Source of the DNA: Isoetes taiwanensis | Lineage: Eukaryota; Streptophyta; Lycopodiopsida; Isoetales; Isoetaceae | Reading direction: 5' to 3' | DNA: 64,000 nt | NCBI GenBank assembly: GCA_021234155.1 | Contig: JAJEKV010000027.1 | Coordinates: 4,772,623-4,836,622 of the forward strand | Part shown: one piece after another, positions 19,148 through 57,990 of the stretch | Position numbering within the stretch: the stretch's first letter is position 1 | Layout of the letters: each line of letters begins with the position of its first letter | Notes under the pieces: model-generated | What the model saw: the letters and a program-made list of their open reading frames with translations, nothing else | Database searches by the model: none | Told to the model about the DNA's origin: nothing | Made by a program: the position numbers and the translations under genes

Positions 19148-21987
19148 ATGGATACTTCAGGATTTATCACCTCTTTGATGACTTCTGCTATTATATTGGT
19201 TCTATTTTTTCTTGTATATTGGTGGGTTTCCAGGCGTCCAAGTAATTTTGTGATCTACTATCCGGCACTTATTTTAAATGGGGTGGGGGTACCAGAGGAC
19301 GCGCAATATAGAAGTCCCTGGCAATGGATCGTAGACGCATGGCAGGTTTCTGAAGAGGAGATTGTGTCTTTTGCTGGTCTAGATGCTGCAGTTTATTTGA
19401 ATCTGCTTGACACAGGTAAACTCTCTTTTTATTTGACAAGAAACTAATGCTCTGTTCATTAGAACGAATTGGAGATATTTTCTGTTTTTAGACTGCTCTT
19501 CTGTTCATTAGAACATATATTTCTGTTTTTTAAAATCATCTTCTTCTTCGTAGATGTTGTTGCATGGAGTAATTGATATTTAGAGTGGTAGATATTTGTA
19601 GCTCTAGCTTTTCAGCAGGATGTCTAGGAATAGGACCATCTTTGTGCTTTCCAATGTTGAGGGAACATTTAGATGTTTTCGCGTAGGTTAGGACATGATA
19701 AGCATAGCCTAGGGTATGCTTGTCTGCTTTCTAGCTCTTCTTAAAAAAGAACATGAAGGATGTCGATATGTTGTCAAAATTATACCAATTTGCAGCTTTG
19801 AAGATTTTGGGCTGCACTGCAATATTTGGCATTCTGGTGCTTCTACCACTGGCAGCAACTGGCAACCAATTGAAACAAAGATCTAAAGGAACCACAAGCT
19901 CTGCAAATAATTCAACAAGACGCACCAATGTCAATTCTACCTTTAGTGGCTTTGATGCACTGGACATGGCCAATTTGAAGGTTGATGTTGTGATATTATG
20001 GATTAATTTTCAATTTATTGAATTAAGACATTGATCCTTATCATATTTTCTTGCCATCTTGGTGCAGCAAAAAGATCCAAAAATGTGGGCATTTATTGTT
20101 GGTGTTTACTGGTTGTCCATTGCATGTTATATGGTGCTCTGGAGGAAATATAAACATATCATCCTACTCAGGAACAAGGATCGTTCTTCTCTGGAATCTA
20201 AGCCAGAACATTACACTGTGCTAGTGAGAGACATACCACCTGTTAAGGACGGTACATTCATGGAACAAGTTGATGCCTATTTCCAAAAGATTCATCCACG
20301 AACTTATGAAAAATCGATAGTCGTGACAAATTTCAAAAAGGTAGCTTTGGAGATTGTAACTTGTTGCAGACCTTCCTTTTATCTTTTAATAGGGTGACCG
20401 TATTTTAGGCTTTTAAATGTTGGGCAAAATTGGAGAAGTATAAAAAGAAGTTAGCCCATGCAGAAGCAATCTTTGCAGAATCTAAAACTAAGCGAAATCC
20501 AGAAGGTATTCGTCCTTGTCATAAGACAGGGACTTTAGGACTTTCAGGTCAAAGGGTGGATTCCATGGATTTCTATCAAGATAAGGTTAAGAAGTGGAAA
20601 TTGAAGTATGAGGATGAAAAGAGGAGGACCTTATCTAGAGAGCAACAATCTTCAGCATTAGCTATCTTCAATAACAGGATGAAAGCAGCTGCTGCAGGAC
20701 AGTCTGTGCATTCACGATTTACTCAGCAATGGTCCACAAGTATAGCTCCTGAACCTCGAGACATCATTTGGGAAAATCTGGCTATCCCATTTTACCAGCG
20801 CTTGATAAGACAAGCAGTGGTCCACACACTTGTTTTTCTGACAATTTGTTTTTCCATGATTCCCATCAGTTTTGTGTCTGCATTGACAACTCTAAGTAAT
20901 CTTCGAAAGACCCTTCCCTTTCTGAATCCTATTGTGAATATAAGTGTTCTACATTCTGTACTGGAAGCATACCTCCCTCAGCTGGCCCTTATCACCTTCT
21001 TAAATTTTCTGCCAACTTTTCTTCATTTCCTATCAAAGTTAGAGGGAATTTCCTCCCAAAGTGACCTGGTATGGGCTACTTCCGGGAAGTTCTTCTCTTT
21101 CATGATCTTTGTTGTATTTCTGGGTGTTGCACTCACAAGTTCATTGTTTAACACTCTAAAGCAAATTGAAAAAGAACCGAGCGGCACCGTGAGCCTTATT
21201 GGTAAATCTCTTACAAGTGCATCTTCATTCTTTGTAACGTTTATTGCTCTCAAGTAAGTGCTTTTGTCTGGCAAATACTGCAAAAAAATTGTTTGTCTTA
21301 ACCTAAAATATAAGGATGGAACAGGTTTTCAGCTGGCTATGGATCAGAAGTGTTACGGCTTGTGCCCCTTTTAATGTATTATCTTAAGCGTAGGTATATT
21401 TGCAAAACTGAAGACGAAATTCGAGAGGCCTGGGAACCTGGCTCCTTTCAATATTCCACAAGCGTCCCGAATGATCTTCTAATACTAACAATTGCTATTT
21501 GTTATGCTGTGATTGCACCCATGGTGCTTCCATTTGGATTGCTCTACTTTGGTCTGGGCTGGATTGTTCTTCGAAACCAGGTGTGTTTCTGTTCCCTCCA
21601 AATCTTTCACATTTTTTTGTATGCTGATTTTTCCAATTTTATCAGGCCCTAAAGGTCTATGTACCAAAATTTGAAAGTGGTGGCAGGATGTGGCCACATA
21701 TACATAACCGAATTATGGCAGCACTCTTGGTTTCCCAAATTGTAATAATTAGTTTCTTCACAGTAAAAGAATTCATGTATACCATTTTCTTGGTGCCACT
21801 TCCTTTTGCAACGGTTACATTTGGATATGTCTGTCACAAAACCTTTTATTATGCATTTGAAGTGACTCCACTTTCTATTGCAAGTGTTGAAACGACGGAA
21901 ATGCCTGTAATCTCTATGATTGTAGAGGCTTATACCCCTACATGCTTATCTGCAGAGGATGATGAATTCAAAGATGCTGAAGTTTGA
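19148..21987 (+). CDS. OSCA/CSC1-like calcium-permeable mechanosensitive channel
   Basis: A six-exon model with all phases matching gives 722 residues: 19148-19415, 19796-19980, 20068-20340, 20409-21253, 21325-21580, 21646-21987, all with GT-AG introns of 65-380 bp. The family (OSCA/TMEM63, DUF221) forms dimeric Ca2+-permeable cation channels opened by osmotic or mechanical membrane tension. Order of parts: an N-terminal membrane helix (SLMTSAIILVLFFLVYWWVS), a second after exon junction 1 (ALKILGCTAIFGILVLLPL), and a third (WAFIVGVYWLSIACYMVLW). Next come the cytosolic PHM7 domain, starting HYTVLVRDIPPV, with VTNFKK and a coiled KYKKKLAHAEA segment, and then the 7-TM block from RDIIWENLAIP through YVPKFESGGRMWPHIHNRI. 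Length fits the usual 700-770. It looks HYP1/OSCA-like. The start is the Met of MDTSGF, since TSGFITSL leads straight into the first helix. No lesion seen; the only clearly intact large host gene here. Confidence 0.9.
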
Positions 21988-25260: not shown

Positions 25261-27485
<2,225 letters not shown>

Positions 27486-28480: not shown

Positions 28481-29090
28481 TCGTAGCATTGTAACATGCA
28501 TCACCTAATATACAGTAGTTTCCCATTTTTCCAGATGTAAATTTGGTGCAAGCAGATGTTCTCTGAAATAGTGCCCAATCATGTGTGCTTCCTGCCTAAC
28601 CAACATCGTAATCCCATATCAGACATTGTAAAAGAATAGAATGAAAGCCCTTCATATGTAATAATCAGGAACATGTTCTATAGGAGCTATTATGGGAATG
28701 TGACTGCCATCCACTGCACCAATCACATTGGGAATGCCATGCTTGGCCTCAAACCCAACTGTATATTTCTTACAAGTACTCATGGAGGGCCAAATAAGAC
28801 CGCAATGTAGTCCTTCCCTCTTTATTTTAATTGCCTGACAAAATTCTATAATGCATCTATAAACTGTAGTGATACCAATTCCATATAATTCTGCTACCAC
28901 GGGAAGTGTTGAACCACTTGCAAGACGAGTCAATGCAATAGCTACTTTTTTTTGGAACTTCCAAAGCCAACCTTAGGTGCATGTCCTTCCTCACTAGCAC
29001 TGGATGTAAGACACCGCCCAACCATTCAAAAGTTGCCTATGACACCCTCATCTTTTGATGAAACATTATGTCTGTATGAGTGCAAGACAA
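28480..29090 (-). pseudogene. PIF/Harbinger transposase (HARBI1-like) remnant
   Basis: Minus strand, from about 29060 down: MRVS-stop-ATFEWLGGVL, VAIALTRLASGSTLPVV, ELYGIGITTVYRCIIEFCQA (helix-turn-helix-like), then KHGIPNVIGAVDGSHIPI with the first catalytic Asp. After a 1-nt frame change near 28660 come MKGFHSILLQC, DYDVG, a TAG where Trp is expected, AGSTHDWALFQRT and NYCILGDACYNAT. The GDA-Y box carries the second catalytic Asp. The third acidic residue is lost at the junction with the LINE-like piece. Stops and the frameshift make it a pseudogene. PIF/Harbinger elements cut and paste with 3-bp TTA/TAA target duplications. Confidence 0.85.
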
Positions 29091-29153
29091 GATGTTTTCA
29101 TAGTATCCTTCTATGTGCTTATACACCCAACAATTCCTTTGAACAGAGTTGCA

Positions 29154-29189
29154 TTTGAAACGGGAGTGTTGCACAACTCCCGTTTCAAA
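29154..29189. repeat. 14-bp-stem inverted repeat
   Basis: TTTGAAACGGGAGT and its exact reverse complement ACTCCCGTTTCAAA flank an 8-nt loop. It lies just upstream of the Harbinger remnant and could be part of its terminal region. A loosely similar sequence (GGGAATCTT..., CCCGTTTCAA, GCAACTCTGTT) recurs near 58568-58640. Confidence 0.7.
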
Positions 29190-30978
29190 GATTCCCTGTA
29201 AAAAACACAACATGATCCAGAAAGTGATCTTTTTGGGCAGAGGTTGAGATTCTTCAATAGTTCAATTTTTTTTACCCTAATTTTGGCACCTCATGCAGGG
29301 GAGAACTTGTTTTTGTAAAACAACATACTTGAAAAGGGCAAATTTTAGAAATGCAATGTAAATCTATCAAAGTATTACAAAAAAAACCATCAATTGTGGA
29401 ATGAAAAAAAATATATATTTCGGATATTTTGGTAACACATCAAATTTGAGTGGTGTTGTAATGCTAACAATAATTTATTAATCAGTTTTGAATTCAAAGG
29501 TCCAAGATATACTCGTCATCACCCTTCTTGCTTGTCTCAGGCTCTTCTTTTGATGTCGATTTGTTTGCTTGTCCGGTGAATCAACCCGTTCTTCTGCAGC
29601 TTTGTCTTCTGGATTAACAACTGGAGCAACTTCTTTTAGCTCTACAAAAACAACCTCTTCGTCAACAGAGCTCGTGAGAGGTGGCTGAATCTCTGATGAT
29701 GTCATCTTGGCATAATCAGATGAGGATTTGGCGCCTAGCTCTTGATTCTCATCAGGAAGGTTTGGTAAGACAACCAATCTCATCTTAATGAAGCTCACAG
29801 CCTCCTTGTCTATGTCCACGGCCACACAATTTCGGCCCTTCTTGAGTGCACATGCAATGGTGGTACCAGAGCCAGAGAACGCATCAAGCACCCAATCTCC
29901 TGGACGAGAAAACATGTCAATGAGATGGTTGATGAGTTTTTGGGGCTTCTGATAGTGGTTCACAATTCGCCTTTGTGCACTCGGGTCTTGCGACTTACAG
30001 AACAATGCGAGAAACTCTAAAACATTTGAGAAGTCGGTCGCGGTGTATGTTGAAATGCTCCATGGTCCTCTTGCCATCGAAGCTCCAGTAACCAACGTGC
30101 AGATATTCCACTTTGCTTAACAGCCTGGGGCCTCCACCATGATAATTTATATTCGTTTTGTACCTTCAAGAGAAAGGTCAATGGTCAGCAACAAAAGAAA
30201 ATAACAAGTAGTGTATTCCAGAATACGAAGCGTACCAGACTAAGTTCTCGTAACCAGCTTGGTCAGGAGATCCAAAGTGATTTTTAAAGCTGACTTCGAC
30301 AAGACCAGCTTGCATACTGGAGTGAAATACCACTAGCCGCCAGTGTCTAGCTGTAGTGATCTTCATTAAGCCTTTTATGAATTCATTGAAATCCGCATGC
30401 TTAAAAGGGATGTCATCGTATCGACTGTCTTTAATCTTGAAGCCGTAGGGAATGTCAGCAATGATTAGCATGAAATCTTGTGGCTTCATACTCGCTACAA
30501 GCTTGGTGCAGTCCCCATGTGCAATTGAGTAGAGATTGTTTTGGTCGAATAAAGTAAACGTTTCATAGTCCGTTTACTATGACCTCTACAACCGACGCTC
30601 TCCCAAAAGTTCTTTATTCCCGAGCAATCCTTACCAGGTGCATGAAACCTTCTGGTAGGTCCTTGTTTTTCTTCTTACTCTGCAAATCCACAAAATAATT
30701 AGAACATTTACAAATCTACGCTACCTAAACGCCCAAAGCAGGCTTACCCAGCCTTCAAACTTTGGAGCGTACTGAACAATTCTCTCGTCAGATGTAGCAA
30801 TAGGATAAAGCTCCTTGCACCGTTCCCATGTTTGCACATTCAATTGTTCCATCAAACATGTTTGACATGTAATGACGTTCTTCTGGCTGCAACATCCAAA
30901 CCAAGAATTACATCAGGGACACGTCTACAGAAGAACTTTAACGCAATCACAAAACAACACCACATCAAACAAGAAAAT

Positions 30979-31089
30979 CCAAAGTGTATTCCGGAATACA
31001 CTTTGGCTAACGTGTAAAGCCAAAGTGTATTCCGGAATACACTTTGGCTAACGTGTAAAGCCAAAGTGTATTCCGGAATACACTTTGGC
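30979..31089. repeat. three 41-bp tandem repeats of a perfect 28-30-bp palindrome
   Basis: Palindromes start at 30979, 31019 and 31060. Each consists of (G)CCAAAGTGTATTCC followed directly by its reverse complement, separated by TAACGTGTAAA. They lie in the intron between exons 4 and 5 of the ParB-methylase gene. Confidence 0.95.
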
Positions 31090-32928
31090 TTTGCTTCAGT
31101 TACTCAGCGTTGCAGACGGATTCGTAAGGCTAAAGTTTCCGGACTGTACAGAGCGTTGACACAAAAGACTAAACTTTCTAAAAGACTTACTTGTGCAACT
31201 CCTTCGACATTTCTTCTAAAGTAAATTCCTTGTCCACAACCTTTTGCAGTAACATTTCTAATAACGGAATGTCTGTAAATCCTTGAAGCTCTCTCCAGAC
31301 AGTGATAGTCATTTCTTTTTTTGGAACATCGGATCCTTTTTTCTTGTCTGTCACTTTGCCCTTACTTTTGAGGTCTTCGCGCTCGAACATATTAAAAATT
31401 TCGTTTTGTAAATCCCATATCTAAACATGGTAACAAGTGGCGTTAGTACAATGTATTCTGGAATAGAATGCTGGGACTAGCTACTTGAACTAAAATGCGG
31501 ACATACCCTTCCTTCTCTAAAAGCAAGCTGGAACCAGTTGTCATGGGCAATAAGAGAGGTCCTTTTGTTGTCCTCGTCGTACTTTAGACAACACTCTATG
31601 GCACACGCCTCTTTGAGCTCCAAGGACTATGCTGGCTTCTTTAGGTCTTCGCCATATTTTTCTTTAAATATAAGAAATTCTCTGTGCATAAACCTGATTT
31701 TATCCACGAAGCTCATCTTCAATTTGTACTCGTTGTCCGCATTGTGGGTGTTGGCAACGATCTTAGCTTCTTCGTCGGTAAGGCCACAATATACTGCACA
31801 AAGAACCGTCAGATACCTCGCGTTGAACTTCTCCTTGTACAGTTGCCTCCTTGCTTTAAAGCTGTGGTTCCCCCCTAACACATAATGCGTGTAGGTATTT
31901 TCCTTGTCATACTGGGCGGGGTCAATGCACTGTTGCCTGTCAACTAGCACAACTATAGGAGCTACATGAGCATACGGATTGCTCCTGATCCTGTCCTTCA
32001 AGTTCCTTAAATGATCTGCATAGATCTTCCGAACTTGAAGAGGTCTCTCACCGTTTTCGTTCTTTGGTGGCATTTCCCTATTTATTGCTACCATTTTTTC
32101 TGAAGTCTTGTCGACCTTCTTTTCTTTAATAGCCACACCAGGGGCTTTGTTTTTTCCTCTTGCCTTTTTTTGTTTTGGTTCTTCTTCTGGCTCTTCCGAT
32201 ACCACTAATGCCTGAGTTCTCTTCTTAGCTGGCTCTTTAGCAGCAACAGTGTTTCGTGGCACTGGCCTTCGTGGCTCTTGCTCCACAAAATCCTCTTTGC
32301 TCCCTTCATTACCAGATGGGCTGCTAACTGATTGTAAAGTCTTCACTAAACGAAGAACTTACAGTGTGTACAATGGACAACAGTGTTTGTTTGTTTATAT
32401 AGTGTGCCACATACTTGTAAAGTGGATTTGGGTTTACCCTAGTCAACCTCAACATAGCCTCATCAAGAACAAACATCCCCTGTGATGTACTAAATGACAG
32501 CCTACCGCGCTGTCCAGACTGCCCAGCAACACTGTCAACACTCTTTATATAGCCCATGCACTGGAATTCGACGTCGTCGTAACGTTTCTGTCCTGGACTC
32601 TTACAGGCGTGCAGGAATGTGAGTGTGGAGCACTTGCCTCCATGGCCTCTAGTAAAGAACCACTGAGTTTGGAAACATTCGTAGACAGTTGATTCAGATG
32701 GGCCACCCAGACTCTTCGGCGGCTGGTGCTTCTTTGTGACAAGCTTCACGATCTTCTTAGCAGGTTGCTTCTGGGCAGGGTTTTGGCTGTAGTAATGGTG
32801 TCATTAGCAAACAGAAACTAGAGCAGGATAATCAGCTAAAGTAACAAAAACGGAGAAAAAACAAGCATTTCGACACTTAAAACAAGGAAAAACATTGCAA
32901 TCCTTGACCTCTAAAGCCCTAAAAGTAA

Positions 32929-33288
32929 GCAAAAGTGTATTCCCGAATACACTTTTGCCGCACAAAGTAAAGCAAAATGTATTCCCGAATACACTTTTCC
33001 TTAGACTGTTTAGCCAAAATGTATTCTGGAATACACTTTGGCTTTCACTGTTAAGCCAAAGTGTATTCATACACTTTGGTTTTTACTGTTAAGCCAAAGT
33101 GTATTCCGGAATACACTTTGGTTTGACGGGATTGCCAAAGTGTATTCCCGAATACACTTCGGCTTTTGTTGGTAGGCAAAAGTGTATTCCGGAACACACT
33201 TTGGCTTACCAATGAAAGCCGAAGTGTATTCGGGAAACACTTTTGCCTACCAACGAAAGCCGAAGTGTATTCGGGAATACACTTTGGC
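32929..33288. repeat. array of about nine palindromic repeats
   Basis: Nine near-palindromes of the same type follow one another at roughly 35-45-bp spacing from 32929-32958 to 33259-33288. Arms vary (GCCAAAG, GCAAAAG, GCCGAAG) and so do centres (TTCCGGAA, TTCCCGAA, TTCGGGAA, TTCTGGAA). One copy near 33060 has lost its centre (GTGTATTCATACAC). The array fills intron 1 of the ParB-methylase gene, close to its promoter side. Confidence 0.95.
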
Positions 33289-33363
33289 TAGACAGAAGGA
33301 CAGTACGTCTAACTTGAATGATTAAAAGCACGTACAAATGACAAGTCGCACTAACCTGTCCAT

Positions 33364-33695
33364 GGTAAGCCTATGCAAATCGGAATACAGCTCGAGCGGA
33401 AATTTGCGGAGGCGCTGGGTCTGGCGACTGGAGCTGCGGAAGTCGAATAGAAAAATGAGGGCGCATTTTTTTCCTTTTAAAGATACGCTGACACGTTTGT
33501 CCAAGTTCTATGTGAAATCGAATACAATACATTGTGTGGGCCAATCACTGTGTATTCCGGAATACACTTGCAGTTTCTTTTTGTCTTCTCTTTTCCTTCC
33601 CTTCGCTGCACAACTCGATTTGTATTCCCGAATACAAAATGCACACCACTTCTGTGTTTTACTTACGTCTAACAAATGTTTTGCAGCTTCGTAAG
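33364..33695. promoter_or_regulatory. divergent intergenic region with palindromes
   Basis: This 332-bp gap separates the starts of the divergent ParB-methylase gene and the LPxPF/transposase-like gene. It holds one palindrome at about 33549-33566 (GTGTATTCC then GGAATACAC) and a weaker one at about 33620-33635 (TTGTATTCCCGAATACAA). By position it should contain both promoters. A TTTTGCAG acceptor-like site lies 10 bp before the plus-strand ATG, so that gene may have an upstream leader exon. Confidence 0.5.
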
Positions 33696-35111
33696 ATGGT
33701 TAACCGCGTGCTGAACAAGCTACCACCACCTTTTGTAGTATCTAGTTCGTCCAGTTCGGAGGGAGCCCTGGTCCAGGACGTTGTTTGTCATGATACCACC
33801 TCTTCTCCATCTCGTTCCTCAGCAACCTCCTCGTTGCTCGTCTTCGACACTCCGAGTCCAGAAACAAACAGGTTGCCACAACCCTTCCAGCCGTCGCCAA
33901 GTCCTGTACAAAACAGACTGCCCCCTCCATTCATTCCATCACCACCTGTACGTAACATGCTTCCACTACCCTTTGTTCCTTCCCCCGAAAGTGCACAGGC
34001 TCCACATGCAAAGGTTACTCGGAACAGGCTCCCTCCACCCTTTGTAGTATCTCCATCACCAAATAGAAGTGCAAGGTCTGCTGCACGGTTTGAAGAATAC
34101 GAGATTCACCACAACTTCTCTCAATATGACTTCAACACAAATGAGGATGATGTTGCAGCTTCAACACCTCGACACACAAATATTGTGACACATGGGTTTG
34201 CAGAGTTTCAAAGTGCAGTAAGAGATATGTTTGCAAGAACTCCTCAACAAGATGCTGCCACAACATCTGCTACCACAACAGGTTATGGCCCATCTCCTAC
34301 ATTTAACACCGTGCCTCTGCCTTTTCCGGGAACAGCTTCACGAGGCCTCTTTTCCTCTAGAAACACACCAATGAGGGTAGAGGAGGCCACTCCAAGAGTA
34401 GAACTCTCGTCCAAAGATGAAGGCAACAACGGCCAACAAGATTACATGTTCTCCAGCCAAACTACCCAGAAATTCAGGGTGGATTATGGATTGAGAGCAT
34501 GTTCATCTGTGAGAAGGAAAAACCTTATGGACGAGAACAAATTGAGGAGAATTCTAAGAACTACTAGATGCTGCTCATTGGGTTGCATCACCAAATTGAA
34601 CATGGCTAAACTTCGTGAAATTAGAAACAGGTACAGTTCGATGACATTATCAGATCAAAATGCCTACTTGGCATACAGTGTAAGGCCAGACCGCAAAACA
34701 TTCTTGCACTACATTAGAGGTGAACAAGTGTGCCAGAAATGTTTTATGGTTGTTCACCGTCTAGGGTCCACTAGAATCTCTCGAATACACCGAAGATTGG
34801 ATAAAGTCCCTGCAATTGATGATCACTGCGGGCTAGGAAGAGTTGTAACAATGCACGCCTTAGGTGCTGTAGCTTGGATGGAGAAATATTTTAGAGAGAC
34901 ATGTGAAAAGCTGCCAAACAGTAAAATGTATCATTTGACAGACAACATCACAAAAAAAGATGTCTTCAACCAGTACAAAGAAACATGCACTCAGTCTCAA
35001 CACATCTCTTACTCTCACTTCACTAGTCTGTGGAAAGTTCAGTTTGGTCTTGTGAAAATTCCCCGAAAATATAGATCGGGTCATGTACCTCGGGCCAAGA
35101 CGCAAAAATGA
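33696..35111 (+). CDS. LPxPF-repeat protein with transposase-like N-terminal domain
   Basis: The 471-residue frame starts at MVNRVLNKLPPPF. Its first ~120 residues carry five copies of N-x-LP-x-PF followed by a Ser/Pro stretch (NKLPPPFVVSS, NRLPQPFQPSP, NRLPPPFIPSP, NMLPLPFVPSP, NRLPPPFVVSP), plus a looser NTVPLPFPG further on. A Ser/Thr-rich, probably disordered region follows. The C-terminal ~170 residues are folded: CCSLGCITKLNMAKLREIR, then VCQKCFMVVHRLGSTRISRI, then HLTDNITKKDVFNQYKETC and SHFTSLWKVQFGLVKIPR. This order (paired Cys, an 'xCxxxFxxxHxLGxxRIxxI' helix pair, then a 'SxFxxxWKxxFxxVKIP' motif) is what I recall from the pre-catalytic region of a widespread eukaryotic DDE transposase group. 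The DDE domain itself is absent, so this is a truncated transposase, a separate DNA-binding subunit, or a gene with unmodelled 3' exons. It faces away from the ParB-methylase gene. Confidence 0.5.
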   Translation: MVNRVLNKLPPPFVVSSSSSSEGALVQDVVCHDTTSSPSRSSATSSLLVFDTPSPETNRLPQPFQPSPSPVQNRLPPPFIPSPPVRNMLPLPFVPSPESAQAPHAKVTRNRLPPPFVVSPSPNRSARSAARFEEYEIHHNFSQYDFNTNEDDVAASTPRHTNIVTHGFAEFQSAVRDMFARTPQQDAATTSATTTGYGPSPTFNTVPLPFPGTASRGLFSSRNTPMRVEEATPRVELSSKDEGNNGQQDYMFSSQTTQKFRVDYGLRACSSVRRKNLMDENKLRRILRTTRCCSLGCITKLNMAKLREIRNRYSSMTLSDQNAYLAYSVRPDRKTFLHYIRGEQVCQKCFMVVHRLGSTRISRIHRRLDKVPAIDDHCGLGRVVTMHALGAVAWMEKYFRETCEKLPNSKMYHLTDNITKKDVFNQYKETCTQSQHISYSHFTSLWKVQFGLVKIPRKYRSGHVPRAKTQK

Positions 35112-35331
35112 GCATGCAGGTAATATCACAGAAATTACCAAAGGTATGTTGATTGCTACTCCAACTGAGGACGATGATAAAGGGCGACCTTTCTGGATAG
35201 CAAGCCACCCATTTCTCCCTATCTTTCCCTAAACCTCTCTCCTTTGATACCCAGCTTAACCTGATCAGTTTTCCTGACCGTAAGACGCCAAATGCACAGC
35301 TAGGAAGTTTAGTCCCAGATGCACACCCACC
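35112..35331. other. short spacer, base composition shift
   Basis: Composition rises from AT-rich to GC-rich towards 35330. No gene seen. It could hold an intron of the upstream gene or the boundary between two elements. Confidence 0.4.
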
Positions 35332-36417
35332 ATGGTAGCAGCAGTAGCAGGCCCTGGCAAGAAGATCCTGGAGCTCCTTAAGCCCGGGAGGGAGGAGGAG
35401 TCGTCGAGTTCGACCGACGACACCTACCACGCCTCCCAGGAGGAGAATCAGAGTAGCTCCTCGGTGGAGACAACGGATGGATGAGACCGTCACCTTTGGC
35501 CATCCGTCCGACCAGGAGGAGCAGGAGCACCAGGAGGAGCACCAGGAGGAGCAGGAGCAGCAGGAGGAGGACGAGCAGGAGAAGCAGTAGTAGCAGGAGG
35601 TTGGCCCTTCCAAGAAGAGGAAGGGCAAGGAGAAGGTAGCGGAATGGCCGAGGGAGAGGGCCCAGAGGAAGACGAGGGAGAGGAAGAAGGAAGCGCGGAG
35701 AAGGGAGAAGCGGTCCAAGAGGGACCAGGACTGCCCAAGAGGGACGGTCAGGAACCTCGTCGGGAATCTACCGACGAGGGGGAGGAGGAAGAGGAGAGTG
35801 AGGGAGCCGGCCAGACGGAGGATGAGCCCGAGGGAGACGCCGGGGAACCCTCGAATCCTGACGCCCGCCCACCATACTCTAAGTGCCCTAAGCCACCTAA
35901 GGTCATAAAGAAGCAGAAGGTGGGCGAGCGGGAGTTCACGTTGAAGCAAGACCGTGAATTCCAGCGTTGGAAGAAAGTATACCAGGAGTACCTCTGGAGG
36001 TGGAAGAGGTACAATGACTGGTATTGTAAGCAAAACGTACAGAGGTACGTTAAAGGCGGGCGGCCGAAGAACCAGCCCAAGCCACCGCCACTATGGCCGG
36101 AGCCGTCGAAGAAGGTCCACCACGGGCCCAATTCAAGGCATGCCCGTGTCTTCAAGGAGATTAGGCACTTCCAACAGTGCACTAATCTCCTTATCAGGAA
36201 GGTGCCCTTCGAACGGCTCCTCCCGGAGATAATGCAGGACTTCCGGACCAATTATAGAGTGACACCCTTGACGGTTCGAGCCCTGCAGGAGGCAGCAGAG
36301 GCGAAGCTCATCCAGCTTTTTGAAGAAGGTAATCTCTGTGCAATCCACGCCAAGCGGGTGACGATAATGCCCAAGGATCTGCACTTGGCGAGGAGGATCC
36401 GCAAGGTGAAACCTTGA
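35332..36417 (+). pseudogene. acidic protein ending in a divergent histone H3 fold
   Basis: From an ATG at 35332 one frame runs to TGA at 36415-36417, interrupted by one TGA at 35482-35484; the open part starts at 35644 (257 residues). The N-terminal half is very acidic and low-complexity ([29 protein letters not shown]). A basic, aromatic linker follows ([20 protein letters not shown]), and the last ~90 residues form a histone H3 fold. Helix N reads [20 protein letters not shown], helix 1 [14 protein letters not shown], loop 1 TNYRVT, helix 2 [20 protein letters not shown], and loop 2 to helix 3 [14 protein letters not shown] then [14 protein letters not shown]. Loop 1 has canonical H3 length, and its Arg is kept. 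The RHFQ and TNLLI words are CENH3-like, the rest canonical. The usual H3 tail (ARTKQTARKS) is absent. In 35480-35640 another frame gives a Glu/Gln repeat then [10 protein letters not shown], so a frameshift may hide the true N-terminus. No family I know joins these parts. Confidence 0.7.
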
Positions 36418-38969: not shown

Positions 38970-39958
38970 TTGTTCGGCCGCGAGCAAGACGACGACCAAG
39001 ATATGACAGTTGAAACAGTAAATGCAAGCTTGGCTCAGATGAGGAATCAGATGCAGCAGTTACTACAGTGGGCAACACCACTAATGCATGCCCAAGAGTA
39101 TGGACCTCCACCACTGCCTCCACCTCCAAGGGGTCTTGACGGAACTCCTCAACCAGAGGGGAAAGAAGCCCAGGCTCCCGAGAAGCATAGGAAGAGAAAA
39201 AGAAGGCATAGGATGAGCCCATCTCCTTCCAGCTCTAGCAGATCAGAGACTTCAGACAGTGGATCCGGAAGTAGCTCCGAGAGTGAGTTAGACACGTCGC
39301 ATGGCAGAGATAAGGACAGAAAAACAGATGACTACCAAAAGAAAGTAGACAACGCAATGAGTAATGTGTGGAAGATAAGAAAGCTAGGCCAATTCTCGGG
39401 CAAGGACAGATCAGGTATGGAGGCAGAAGCATGGCTGGATGAGATGGAAGAATTCGGAAACTCTTATGGAATGAAAGATAAAGATATAGGCAAGGTGGCA
39501 ACAACAAACTTGATAGGGCCAGCCAGAATATGGTGGAAGGGTTATGCAAAATCAAACAAGTTGAGAAGAAACAACTGCAGGTTTAGGACATTCAGCGAGG
39601 CATTCCTAAGCATTATGTCCCGAGATCCCATACCAGCAGACAAATACAACAATTCTATAGGTTGGATCAGGGTAATTTATCCGTGGCTAAGTATAGGGAG
39701 GAGTTCATGAGGTTGAGATTGAATGTTCCAAGGATAACGGAAAGACAAGCCGTAGATGGGTATATCGAGGGCCTCAATAGCAACATCAAAAGGCTAGTGA
39801 GGGCAATAAATCCGAGAACAGTTGGGGAAGCAGAAGATAAAGCTCTCAGCTTAGAAGAGGCACCAGTGACCCCGGCACAGAAACAACTTCCATATAAAGG
39901 AAAGGCAGCAGGGCAATATCAGGCTAGACAGGCACCCTCTATTCCAGCAGGAGGCTAG
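38970..39958 (+). pseudogene. Ty3/gypsy Gag capsid, one frameshift
   Basis: After a Pro-rich and Ser/Arg-rich lead (PPPLPPPPRG, KHRKRKRRHRMSPSPSSSSR), the capsid fold of the retrotrans_gag family is clear. It reads KLGQFSGKDRSGMEAEAWLD, then TNLIGPARIWWKGY and FRTFSEAFLSI. A 1-nt frame change near 39660 leads into LDQGNLSVAKYREEFMRLR and AVDGYIEGLNSNIKRLVR. A zinc-knuckle-like LCFRCFQTEC lies near 40090, its later ligands lost. Confidence 0.8.
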
Positions 39959-48426: not shown

Positions 48427-49830
48427 TTGCAAATGGGAGATCTATATGATGAAGATTGCAAAGGTAAAATGATTAAGTACTTTGAAGATTGGGTGGATGT
48501 TTTTGCATGGGAATATTCAGAATTGAAAGGGGTTGATAGGAGCATTTGTGAGTTTGAGATAAAAGTTCGTGAAGATACTAAACCTGTCATGCAGAGATTG
48601 AGAAGAATTAATTCCTCACTTTTAGATCTTATCAAGCGGAATTATTCAAAAATGCGAGGAGTCGAGGTTTGATAGTTGACATTGTGAACCCTTCTTGGGT
48701 TTCTTGTATTGTTCCAGTTCTAAAAAAGAATGGTTCTCTAAGAATATGTGTGGATTATAGAGATCTAAATAAAGCTACTGTCAAAGATTGTTACCCTTTG
48801 CCTTTTTTGGAAGAAATACTTTATGCAGTGGCTGGCAAGTCTATGTACTCATTTTTGGATGGTTTCTCTGGTTTTAATCAGATTAGCATCAAAAAGGAAG
48901 ATCAGCCAAAGACATCCTTCATTACTCCATGGGGAACTTATGCAATGAAAAGGATGCCTTTTGGCTTAATGAATGCCCCTGCTACATTTCGAGAGAGCTA
49001 TGGATCTTGTCTTTGCAAACATGACTCCTGAGCAATTCAGAGTTTATCTTGATGATTTATGCTTAGGTACTGGTACAAGTGATCATATTTCAGAGCTAAC
49101 AAGGATATTTACATTGTGCAGGAAAACTGGAGTTAATCTAAACCCAAAGAAGTGCATCTTTTTGGCATCCAAAGGCCAGCTCTTAGGCCATGAGGTTTCT
49201 GCTAAAGGCCTTCAAGTAGCTGAAGAGAAGATCATAGCTTTAAAAAAGCTTCAAACACCCAGGACAATTAAAGAAGTCAAGGGATTTATGGGAATGACCT
49301 CTTTCTTAAGAGTGTATGTGCCTAATTTCTCTCACCTTATTAGTCCTATCTCTAAGTTGACTAGAGTAGGCCAAGTTAGTAAAAGAGAAAGTAAATATAG
49401 GCCTGTTGTTTGGACTGATGAGTGTGAAAAAGCTTTTTTGCAGATCATAGAGGCTATTTGCCATTCTACACTTTTAAAAACTCCAGACCTTTCATTACCA
49501 TTTAAAGTTTACATAACTATCACTAAAAAGGCTGCTGGAGTTGCCATTTTGCAGGGTAGACACCCTATTGCTTTTGCAAGCAAACAATGGTCTCAAACCA
49601 AGAGAAGTATGCTAAGATAGAAAGGAGTCTTTCAGCTGCTCTCATCTTTTTGATCGAGAGACAGGGTCATCTTTTACAAAAATCCCAAGCCACTATCTAC
49701 ATGCAGAGAACCCCATGCCTTTTTTTTGTATGGTAAGAAATTAGAAAACCTAAACTTCATAGGTGGGCTTGTAGGCTTCAATCTTATGATTTAAAGGTAA
49801 AGGTTATTCATGTATTGAACAACCCGAAGT
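48427..49830 (+). pseudogene. Ty3/gypsy reverse transcriptase and RNase H
   Basis: RT blocks are spread over three frames: FEDWVDVFAWEYSELKG and IKVREDTKPVMQRLRRI (48480-48610), IVPVLKKNGSLRICVDYRDL (48708-48768) and SFITPWGTYAMKRMPFGLM (48915-48971). A catalytic YLDDLCLG follows (about 49048), then GQLLGHEVSAKGLQV and IKEVKGFMGMTSFLR (49180-49310). RNase H begins at VVWTDECEKAFLQII (about 49407) and breaks up after 49620. Frame changes near 48670 and 48990 and a stop at 49618 disable it. Confidence 0.85.
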
Positions 49831-55516: not shown

Positions 55517-57990
55517 AAGATTTTATCTTGAAATTTAAGAGGAATTAAAGGTCCCCTTAAGAGAAGGAGGGCTATATCTCAGATTAGGGAATACAAGGCT
55601 GACATTATTTTGCTGCAAGAGCTGAGACTCCCCAACTTTAAATGTTCCAACCTGGCTGACTGGATTGGTCCAGGCCTGTCCTCTATCTGGATTGAGGCTT
55701 CTAACACTTCAGGGGGGGCTTTGTATAATCTGGAGAAATCTCACTCATTCTACCCTATATAACAGTCCATGTAATAGATGGCAAGTTGTGATCTTCAATT
55801 TCTCAAATTCCTTCTTTGGAATTATCAACATCTATGCTCCAACCAACTCGAGGGATAGAGAGTTAATCTGGCCTCAAATTAATAACTGGCTTCAAAATCA
55901 CAATTCTGTTTCTTGGATCCTAGCTGGTGATTTCAATAACACGCCCTGTGCTGATTTTAAATCCAACAACAACTTTAGTATGACTGTCAAAGAGAAGGAA
56001 AATTGGGAATCTTTGTTAGACGCACATCTCCTCAGTTATATTCCTTCTTCTACTGCTAAATTCACTTGGTCAAATAAACAGGATGGTCACTCCAGAGTTT
56101 ACTGTGCTTTAGATAGATTTTATGTTAAAAATTCTGAGTTATCTTTTTGGGACAATTGTGTTGTTTCCAGTGATGAGAGCACCTCTATTTCTGATCATCA
56201 GCCACAGTTCCTTGAGACTAAACATTCTCTGGGCATTAAGAGACAAGGAAATATTCCTTTTAAATTAAACTGTTCTATTCTGAGCAATGAAAAGTTCTGT
56301 GCTGACTTTAGTATGTTCTATAGCAACCTCCCGAGAAATAATGGTAATTTCTCAATGAAAGCTTTTTATTCCAAGATTAAGGCTGCCAAATCCTGGATCA
56401 AAGGTTGGTCCAAATCTTTGCATGCTCAGAAGAATGAAACAAAAAATAAGCTTTTCATTGCCATAAAAGAGGTCAGACCTAAGTTGCAGACAGATCCCTT
56501 AAATCCTTCTTTGCATCATATGGAGGATGATCTGGAGCATGATATTAAGAATATTGAAGAGTATGAAGCCAAAGGGGCTGCCATGAAAAGCAAGATTAAA
56601 TTTCATAATGACATGGATAATTGCAATTCCAAATTCTTTTTTAGAATTGCTAAGAACAGACTTCTCAAAAAGCAGCTCACTTCCATTCAAGATGACAATG
56701 GCACTATTCTTAATGATCCAAAGGGTATCTCTGATTTTCTTTCCTCTAAATACTCCTCTATTTTCTCTGATCAGCAAAATATCAATTGGGATACGCCTGA
56801 GGCTAAAAGTTATCTGGATATTCTTAACTCATTGCCTAATAATATTGTTGATCCCCTATGTGATCAAATTCTTAGAATTCCCTCAGAGGAAGAGATTAAG
56901 CAGATCCTAAATAGCCTGGCTAAAGGAAAAAGTCCTGGCCCTGATGGACTTCCTCCTGAATTTTACGTCAAATTCTGGGATCTCATCAAACAAGATTTGG
57001 TTCATATGGTTAATGGTTTTTGGTTATCCAGTCATTTGCACCCTGCTCTGTCCTCTGGATTTATTTCTCTTATTCCTAAAATTGACAATCCTGAGGCTTT
57101 TAGTGACTGGAGGCCTATTTCTTTGACCAACACTACTTATAAACTTTGTGCAAAAATCATAGCCAATAGAATCAAAGGTTTCCTCCAAAAAAATATTAGC
57201 CTGCATCAATCTGCTTTGTTATCTAACAGGTACATTCTTGATAACTATATTGCAGCCATGGAGGGCATGCATTGGGCTAAACTCTCGAACCAAAACTGTG
57301 TTCTATTGAAGCTTGACTTCTCTAAAGCCTTTGATACAGTCAGATGGGACTTTCTTACCCTCTCCCTTCAGAAAATTGGCATCCCAGCCAAATTGATTGA
57401 TTTGATTATGGGACTTAACATAAGAGCTCAGTCATCTATTCTTATTAATGGTTCATGAAGCAAGTTCTTTTCCTTGAACAAAGGTGTTAAGCAGGGGTGC
57501 CCTCTGGCCCCCTACCTTTTTATTATTGTTGCAGAAATGCTTACAAGGGTAATTCAGCACCATCAGCAGGAAGGAAACATTGAAGGTCTGTTGCTCCCTG
57601 ACAATGAAAACCAGCTATCTCTTATGCAATATGCTGATGACTCCTTCAGCTTCCTGAGGAATGAGATAAATAACATTGAATTTTTCTTGAATACCATTAA
57701 AGGATTTAGTGTTGCTTCTGGCATCTATCTAAATCAGCAGAAATGCACTATCTTAGGGGAGTCCAATCGACCTGATATTCTTGGCATCAAATGCTTTGGT
57801 TTTGACCATTCCTCTACTCTTCTTGGTATGCCCCTCTCTTTGGATACTTCTACTTCCCAACAGACGCAATGTAAGGTGGTTGGGGGCAGGGCCCAACCAA
57901 GCAATGTAGTGTGGTGTGTGGTAAGGTGGTGTGACGTTAAAACTACTATCTATCAAAAATCTCTGGTCCCCCATTGTTTCCAAAATTAGA
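55517..57990 (+). pseudogene. LINE ORF2: APE endonuclease and reverse transcriptase
   Basis: ORF2 opens at 55517 with MKILS, a TGA where the conserved Trp of 'SWNLRG' is expected, and NLRGIKGPLKRRR. A frame change at the G-run near 55712 leads into the long 55665-57458 frame. Endonuclease: IINIYAPTNSRDRELIWPQI, ILAGDFNNTPC, SRVYCALDRFYV, ISDHQP. RT: SLAKGKSPGPDGLPPEFY, DWRPISLTNTTYKL, LLKLDFSKAFDTVRWDFL. A TGA at 57456-57458 (probably another lost Trp) interrupts; then KGVKQGCPLAPYLFIIVAEM and the intact catalytic MQYADDSFSF follow. Near 57866-57945 a GT-rich insert disturbs the frame, with SKIRRKLNNYGSCL visible after it. The sequence stops at about 58020, so the C-terminus is missing. Least damaged RT in the window. 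Confidence 0.9.

Follow-up and report, generated by a model that had tools for sequence, protein, structure and literature searches.

In a 64,000-nucleotide stretch of the genome of Isoetes taiwanensis (the window; contig JAJEKV010000027.1, positions 4,772,623 to 4,836,622 of assembly GCA_021234155.1), one gene on the minus strand (33363-29494) joins a ParB-like domain to a class-beta N6/N4 DNA methyltransferase. This gene is one half of a two-gene DNA transposon with divergent genes. The palindrome GTGTATTCNNGAATACAC, 18 base pairs (bp) long with 16 fixed bases, recurs in the methyltransferase introns and in the promoter region that the two genes share. A preliminary description had already recognised a single spliced gene of this kind, and this part of it holds: the gene lies inside the interval given there, and YVLGGNHSFKARRQLYKE, ADIPYGF and DAFSGSGTT are all present. 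The ends of the element, the transposase gene, the palindrome array and the published algal fusions were not part of that description.

We reconstructed the gene structure by comparing 24 sequences, namely 23 fetched sequences and the window. Those named L009-L038 were picked from the first listed palindrome sites; this sample is therefore non-random, and its members contain the palindrome by virtue of how they were chosen. Five copies within L043-L051 were selected by their protein, among the matches to the ParB-like exon, and eight 3-kb loci (L001-L008) were excluded from all copy counts. The gene starts with an ATG at 33363, its final codon lies near 29494, and it contains five introns with phases 2, 0, 2, 0 and 2. 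Exon 1 (33356..33363) supplies the start codon and the first residues, and is placed by its frame and by the form ATGGACAG followed by GT, which a narrow pattern found in 6 of the 24 sequences (window, m12, L026, L028, L033 and L037). Intron 1 (phase 2, 32787..33355) holds the main palindrome array, with mostly 41-42 bp spacing. Exon 2 (31507..32786) encodes an N-terminal domain of no known family, a basic linker and the ParB-like domain with its GGNHS box (LGGNHSFKAR). It is followed by intron 2 (phase 0, 31421..31506), exon 3 (31191..31420), intron 3 (phase 2, 30887..31190), exon 4 (30748..30886) and intron 4 (phase 0, 30680..30747), which is free of the palindrome. The first half of the methyltransferase (ADIPYGF, motif IV) lies in exon 5 (30236..30679), and after intron 5 (phase 2, 30164..30235) its second half (DAFSGSGTT, motif I) and a C-terminal tail are encoded by exon 6 (29494..30163). 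Across the copies, the GT donors of introns 2-5 are kept in 19/19, 19/19, 19/19 and 15/15 cases, and the AG acceptors in 18/22 (one more is shifted by one base), 17/19, 15/15 and 15/16. The preliminary description had counted at least six introns. However, the stretches it read as exons 2 and 3 form a single in-frame exon in L028, L033, L037, m13 and L043, and in L043 a frame of 468 amino acids stays open across the supposed intron. Because the other copies read through in frame, the junction in the window is a frameshift, and the number of introns falls to five.

The window copy is damaged. A TAG lies in exon 2 at 31627-31629, at least three frame breaks are present, and further stops occur in exon 5; the TAG noted in the preliminary description is real, and that description was right that this copy is damaged. 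Besides the TAG, exon 2 carries a frame break near 32327 and, near 32080, an in-frame loss where the ParB-like domain begins. Exon 5 has its stops and a frame break near 30560-30630, and the frame of exon 6 is broken near 30040 and 29560. The window copy is therefore a pseudogene, and as a source of N6-methyladenine (6mA) or N4-methylcytosine (4mC) it looks dead. Long open frames are kept elsewhere, in exon 2 of other copies and in exons 5 and 6 of L029.

The left end of the element in the window is a terminal inverted repeat of about 25 bp (29142..29166, plus strand). The same end was found in 16 other sequences listed, and in L038 it diverges after the first bases. Seven complete copies, with both ends present, are 8,138 to 9,061 bp long. 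In all seven, the left and right repeats agree at 20-24 of 25 positions, and six are flanked by 4-bp target duplications (ATAT, CCAA, AGAT, TGTC, AATT and AAGG). The seventh, m10, has no target duplication and is still counted; when ends were deliberately mismatched, 0 of 42 pairings matched. Elements of the Sola1 and Sola2 groups make 4-bp duplications without a fixed sequence, and the duplications of the Isoetes element agree with that property. The divergent promoter region between the two genes (33364..33695) contains two palindromes. Beyond it, on the plus strand, lie the N-terminal part of the presumed transposase (33696..35073), which is common to other copies, and a C-terminal remnant (35074..35203). 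The DUF7869 part between them is deleted here at about 35073/35074; in two other copies DUF7869 (PF25273) lies downstream of the N-terminal part and was matched on pieces from them (8.2e-19 and 1.5e-17). We presume from this domain that the second gene is the transposase. The right end of the window element is lost after about 35203, so that no target duplication can be read from this copy. When the ParB-like exon was searched against the genome (1,658,258,908 bases, 1,110 contigs), 3,460 candidates passed the first look; scoring 150 of them yielded 166 matches. Among about 150 matches listed, about 43 had an internal stop by eye, and many had open frames of 450-500 amino acids. The inverted repeats and target duplications, with the many copies dispersed in the genome, bear out the earlier suggestion that the gene belongs to a mobile element.

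The methyltransferase domain was identified by Pfam searches and by the order of its motifs. PF01555, proposed as a check in the preliminary description, matched 29481-30116 with 64.1 bits (2.3e-17) against a cut-off of 26.7, and it scored 66.3 bits on the joined exons 5 and 6 of L029. The phage methyltransferase family phrog_67 matched residues 40-317 of 370 of L029 (9.6e-26). The catalytic motif IV, D[LI]PYGF, in exon 5 precedes the S-adenosylmethionine motif I, FSGSGTT, in exon 6, as in class beta. Among the matches listed (the best 20 of 28 records), phage methyltransferases are 20-37% identical, and a scan of viral_contigs, which reaches close relatives only, returned no relatives of this part. 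In passages of a study of a rotifer enzyme, DPPY is given as a motif of bacterial N6-adenine enzymes (PMC8885841). Since D-L/I-P-Y is nearer to DPPY, we guess that the product is more likely to be 6mA than 4mC.

The identity of the exon-2 domain was assessed by profile comparison and motifs, and these indicate that it is probably ParB-like. The second check that had been proposed, PF02195 (ParBc), gave no match above the Pfam threshold in the window gene or in L029; the profile also misses N15 SopB and three plasmid ParB proteins (their first 220 residues). When the domain was compared by tblastn with 72,556 plasmid records (E<=10), 10 of them matched, nine annotated as 'ParB family protein' and one as 'ATP-binding protein'. 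Each of the nine is weak (E 0.6-5), and several are near-duplicates. Comparison by hhalign with three of these plasmid ParB proteins does favour ParB-likeness: the score was 43.3 (probability 86%) and the best of 200 shuffles was 20.2, the score being inflated because the three proteins had been preselected by similarity to the query. The similarity spans the GGN box and the next helix. Scans of phages, viral_contigs and genome_contigs, again reaching close relatives only, found no relatives of this part, and its single-sequence fold (pLDDT, the predicted local distance difference test, 40) was not used.

We then analyzed the palindromes. In the window, 13 sites match the first pattern with at most three mismatches (shuffles expect 0.01), and 14 match an N-centred pattern. 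They extend over 30211..33637 and occur only in introns and the divergent promoter, starting at 30211, 30984, 31025, 31066, 31451, 32935, 32977, 33019, 33099, 33140, 33182, 33265, 33550 and 33620. Intron 5 has one, intron 3 has three exact palindromes, and intron 2 has a single degenerate one at 31451. Counted over the whole genome, exact GTGTATTCNNGAATACAC occurs 4,650 times; the backward control occurs 0 times, and chance would give about 0.4 for 16 fixed bases at this genome size. At 5.2 exact sites per sequence, this amounts, as a rough guess, to about 890 array-bearing copies. The 24 sequences contain 207 sites (at most three mismatches), 3 to 16 in each. Assigned by the nearest matched exon, with one neighbour exon missing in a few copies, 114 lie in intron 1 or the divergent promoter, 69 in or beside intron 3, 19 in intron 2 and 5 in or beside intron 5. 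None of the 207 lies inside the coding stretches matched by tblastn, and the flanks outside the known ends (left, 32,050 bases from 17 sequences; right, 19,516 bases) have no site either. The distances between neighbours (n=183) are 42 bp in 74 cases, 41 bp in 17 and 40 bp in 5, giving 96 at 40-42 bp, and 135 are below 200 bp. The usual spacing of 41-43 bp corresponds to about four helical turns. Because copies found through the palindrome must carry it, we chose the five copies by protein; the palindrome was present in all five, and in each of them some neighbouring sites are 41-43 bp apart. Core positions 4, 6, 7 and 11-15 are constant at 203-207 of the 207 sites, a constancy that the mismatch limit inflates. 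The centre is CG at 112/207 sites and TG or CA at 72/207, and the latter would be the pattern expected from decay of host 5-methylcytosine at CpG.

To compare selection on the two genes, we calculated pN/pS, the ratio of nonsynonymous to synonymous differences per site, for 20 copies (190 pairs), after dropping 4 of the 24 sequences, which had fewer than 250 codons in one gene. The ratio was 0.25 in frame and 1.26 in a shifted frame for the methyltransferase gene, and 0.47 and 0.99 for the transposase gene, these values being rough because synonymous differences in the methyltransferase gene approach saturation. By this measure, the methyltransferase gene is the more constrained of the two. 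Divergence of the two genes at four-fold sites correlates over the 190 pairs (Spearman 0.60), and discordant pairs occur, such as m09-L030 (0.53 vs 0.05) and m16-L032 (0.65 vs 0.08). In three of six compared pairs, m09-L030, m16-L032 and the window with m12, the identity switches inside the intron-1 array. In the last of these the switch lies at window 33068-33138, and the left end is again 96% alike. In m11-L030 and m09-L031 the switch comes to the right of the array, within or close to the first part of the transposase gene, and m13-L015 has no switch. The switches and the discordant pairs indicate that halves of the element have been exchanged between copies, with the array as one joining place, and that the two gene halves can have separate histories.

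Genes of this kind are already known, since ParB-methyltransferase genes have been published in transposons of brown, green and red algae. As described in passages of PMC12477816, Sola1-1_Ec32 of the brown alga Ectocarpus, a 21.5-kb element, carries a gene for a 1104-residue protein with a ParB-like part and an N4mC/6mA methyltransferase, and this gene and the transposase lie on opposite strands. That paper cites green and red algal relatives (Iyer, Abhiman and Aravind 2011; Petroll 2025), and its authors already propose that the protein binds and modifies its own element (PMC12477816). The Isoetes fused gene is likewise on the strand opposite to the transposase, but the element is only 8.1-9.1 kb; the comparison with the algal genes covers gene arrangement. 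In the 1.66-Gb Isoetes genome, the ParB-like exon has at least 150 scored matches. Passages of PMC12477816 make no mention of a palindrome array, and among the open-licence papers listed by our searches none described the array or a land-plant member. The array would be new, and so would the land-plant host if confirmed. For the array itself, the nearest parallel is parS_F (sopC) of the F plasmid, described in passages of two papers as a series of twelve repeats of 43 bp that contain 16-bp inverted repeats and to which ParB_F (SopB) binds (PMC6238139, PMC9178275). The Isoetes repeat unit is similar, mostly 41-43 bp with an 18-bp palindrome of 16 fixed bases, and a ParB-like protein is encoded beside it, which suggests an F-plasmid-like arrangement. 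In contrast to parS_F, the Isoetes arrays are distributed over introns and promoter, the presumed binding protein has a methyltransferase joined to it, and the binding itself is putative. Neither of the two genes of the element looked like ParA, for which no search was made. Two further systems resemble parts of the element. The bdelloid rotifer enzyme N4CMT is presented in passages of PMC8885841 as a bacterial-type PF01555 methyltransferase in a eukaryote, with introns, encoded by a host gene, fused to a chromodomain, marking transposons, and stated to have no eukaryotic homologs. The Isoetes gene is also a PF01555 gene with introns, but it is carried by the transposon itself. Fungal DNA transposons carry TET/JBP dioxygenases, discussed as a counter to silencing in passages of PMC12730594 that mention no cis array. 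These too place a base-modifying enzyme on a DNA transposon, with a different enzyme and chemistry.

Building on the ends, both genes, the introns, the array, the constraint and the dispersed copies, all read from the DNA itself, we lean, by a little, towards a transposon that tags itself. The ParB-like protein would bind the palindromes as a dimer and nucleate on the array, and the attached methyltransferase would methylate the element in cis around its own promoter, 6mA being likelier than 4mC. The mark may then keep the element expressible despite host cytosine methylation. Because the array covers the shared promoter, we would expect such a mark to influence expression, most likely by countering silencing. 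We are more hesitant about a working plasmid-like partition module in a transposon, in which the ParB-like protein would load on a split sopC-like array, spread along it and write a bacterial-type base mark, with the array perhaps serving as one joint for gene exchange; a plant would then possess a dedicated DNA amino-methyltransferase with built-in target sites. We doubt this reading rather more than we believe it.

Several observations weigh against the self-tagging account. No single copy has been demonstrated to be open through every exon. The ParB-like part lacks a PF02195 match, has no match among solved structures, and is backed by an hhalign score that is inflated as described above; the pN/pS ratios are likewise rough. 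Of the 183 neighbour distances, 87 are not 40-42 bp. The CpG decay at the palindrome centres suggests that array copies were themselves cytosine-methylated, so any protection would be incomplete. Finally, binding, dimerisation, methylation, anti-silencing and expression are steps that we infer, and the array could belong to the transposase or to a host factor.

This last point can be made into an explanation of its own, in which the transposase or a host transcription factor binds the palindromes and the methyltransferase is on the same element by chance. The array does span the promoter of the transposase gene as well, and any dimeric DNA-binding protein would suit an 18-bp palindrome. However, the sites are confined to the shared promoter and to four introns of the methyltransferase gene (1, 2, 3 and 5), with none past the start of the transposase gene, and they lie away from the element ends. 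Transposase sites are usually near the element ends. We therefore consider this explanation somewhat unlikely. Methylation might instead time transposition, with half-methylated new DNA as the substrate and the mark limiting or licensing the jump rather than opposing silencing. Dam serves the timing of transposition in this way for bacterial IS10, and the stronger constraint on the methyltransferase than on the transposase is what would be expected of a gene that the element needs. But the element ends, where such control should act, carry no palindromes; we rate this as unlikely.

The arrays could also be short satellite repeats spread through the introns by slippage or conversion, with no protein partner. 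The range of 3 to 16 sites per sequence would fit this, as would core flanks that are often alike within one copy and the three pairs (of six) whose identity changes within the intron-1 array. Against it, the core letters are kept, and the same core occurs in separate introns and the promoter, in copies near synonymous saturation; in our judgement such an origin is quite improbable. A host gene of bacterial derivation, or plain contamination, would account for the nearest named relatives of the domains being phage and plasmid proteins, and it has practically no chance of being correct. It has already been refuted by the introns with their conserved splice sites, by the inverted repeats and target duplications, and by the large number of dispersed copies, in accordance with the preliminary description, which had set contamination aside. 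A recent viral or prokaryote origin found no support in the scans of phages, viral_contigs and genome_contigs, which reach close relatives only.

The use of 6mA and 4mC in plants and algae is disputed, and writers have been difficult to identify. The element offers a candidate writer together with a candidate target, the 4,650 exact sites, so one can ask directly whether this protein methylates DNA near the palindromes. If the self-tagging account is true, the element would be a self-marking and possibly anti-silencing transposon device, with a ParB-array system working in a nucleus.

Other features of the window were recorded. Rfam gave 0 matches in it. Just outside the left inverted repeat, 28655-28972 (minus strand) looks by eye, from a motif, like a Harbinger-type transposase, with no Pfam match above the cut-off; frames of a simple repeat (repeated SIYL) lie at 27018-27303 (minus strand). 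Next to the lost right end, an open reading frame of 309 amino acids at 35488-36414 (plus strand) has a histone-H3-like C-terminus (PF00125, 1.6e-28) behind a long acidic stretch; it was considered as a part of the element and rejected, having no match in the fetched copies. An exon of a CSC1/OSCA-like channel lies at 20409-21254 (plus strand; PF02714, 6.7e-30; PF14703, 2.8e-23). Pieces of a Ty3 capsid and of reverse transcriptases, which we divide into a long-terminal-repeat type and a long interspersed nuclear element (LINE) type, occur at 39587-39955, 48612-49617 and 55626-57986. The channel exon and the Ty3 and LINE pieces fit a plant genome without proving it.

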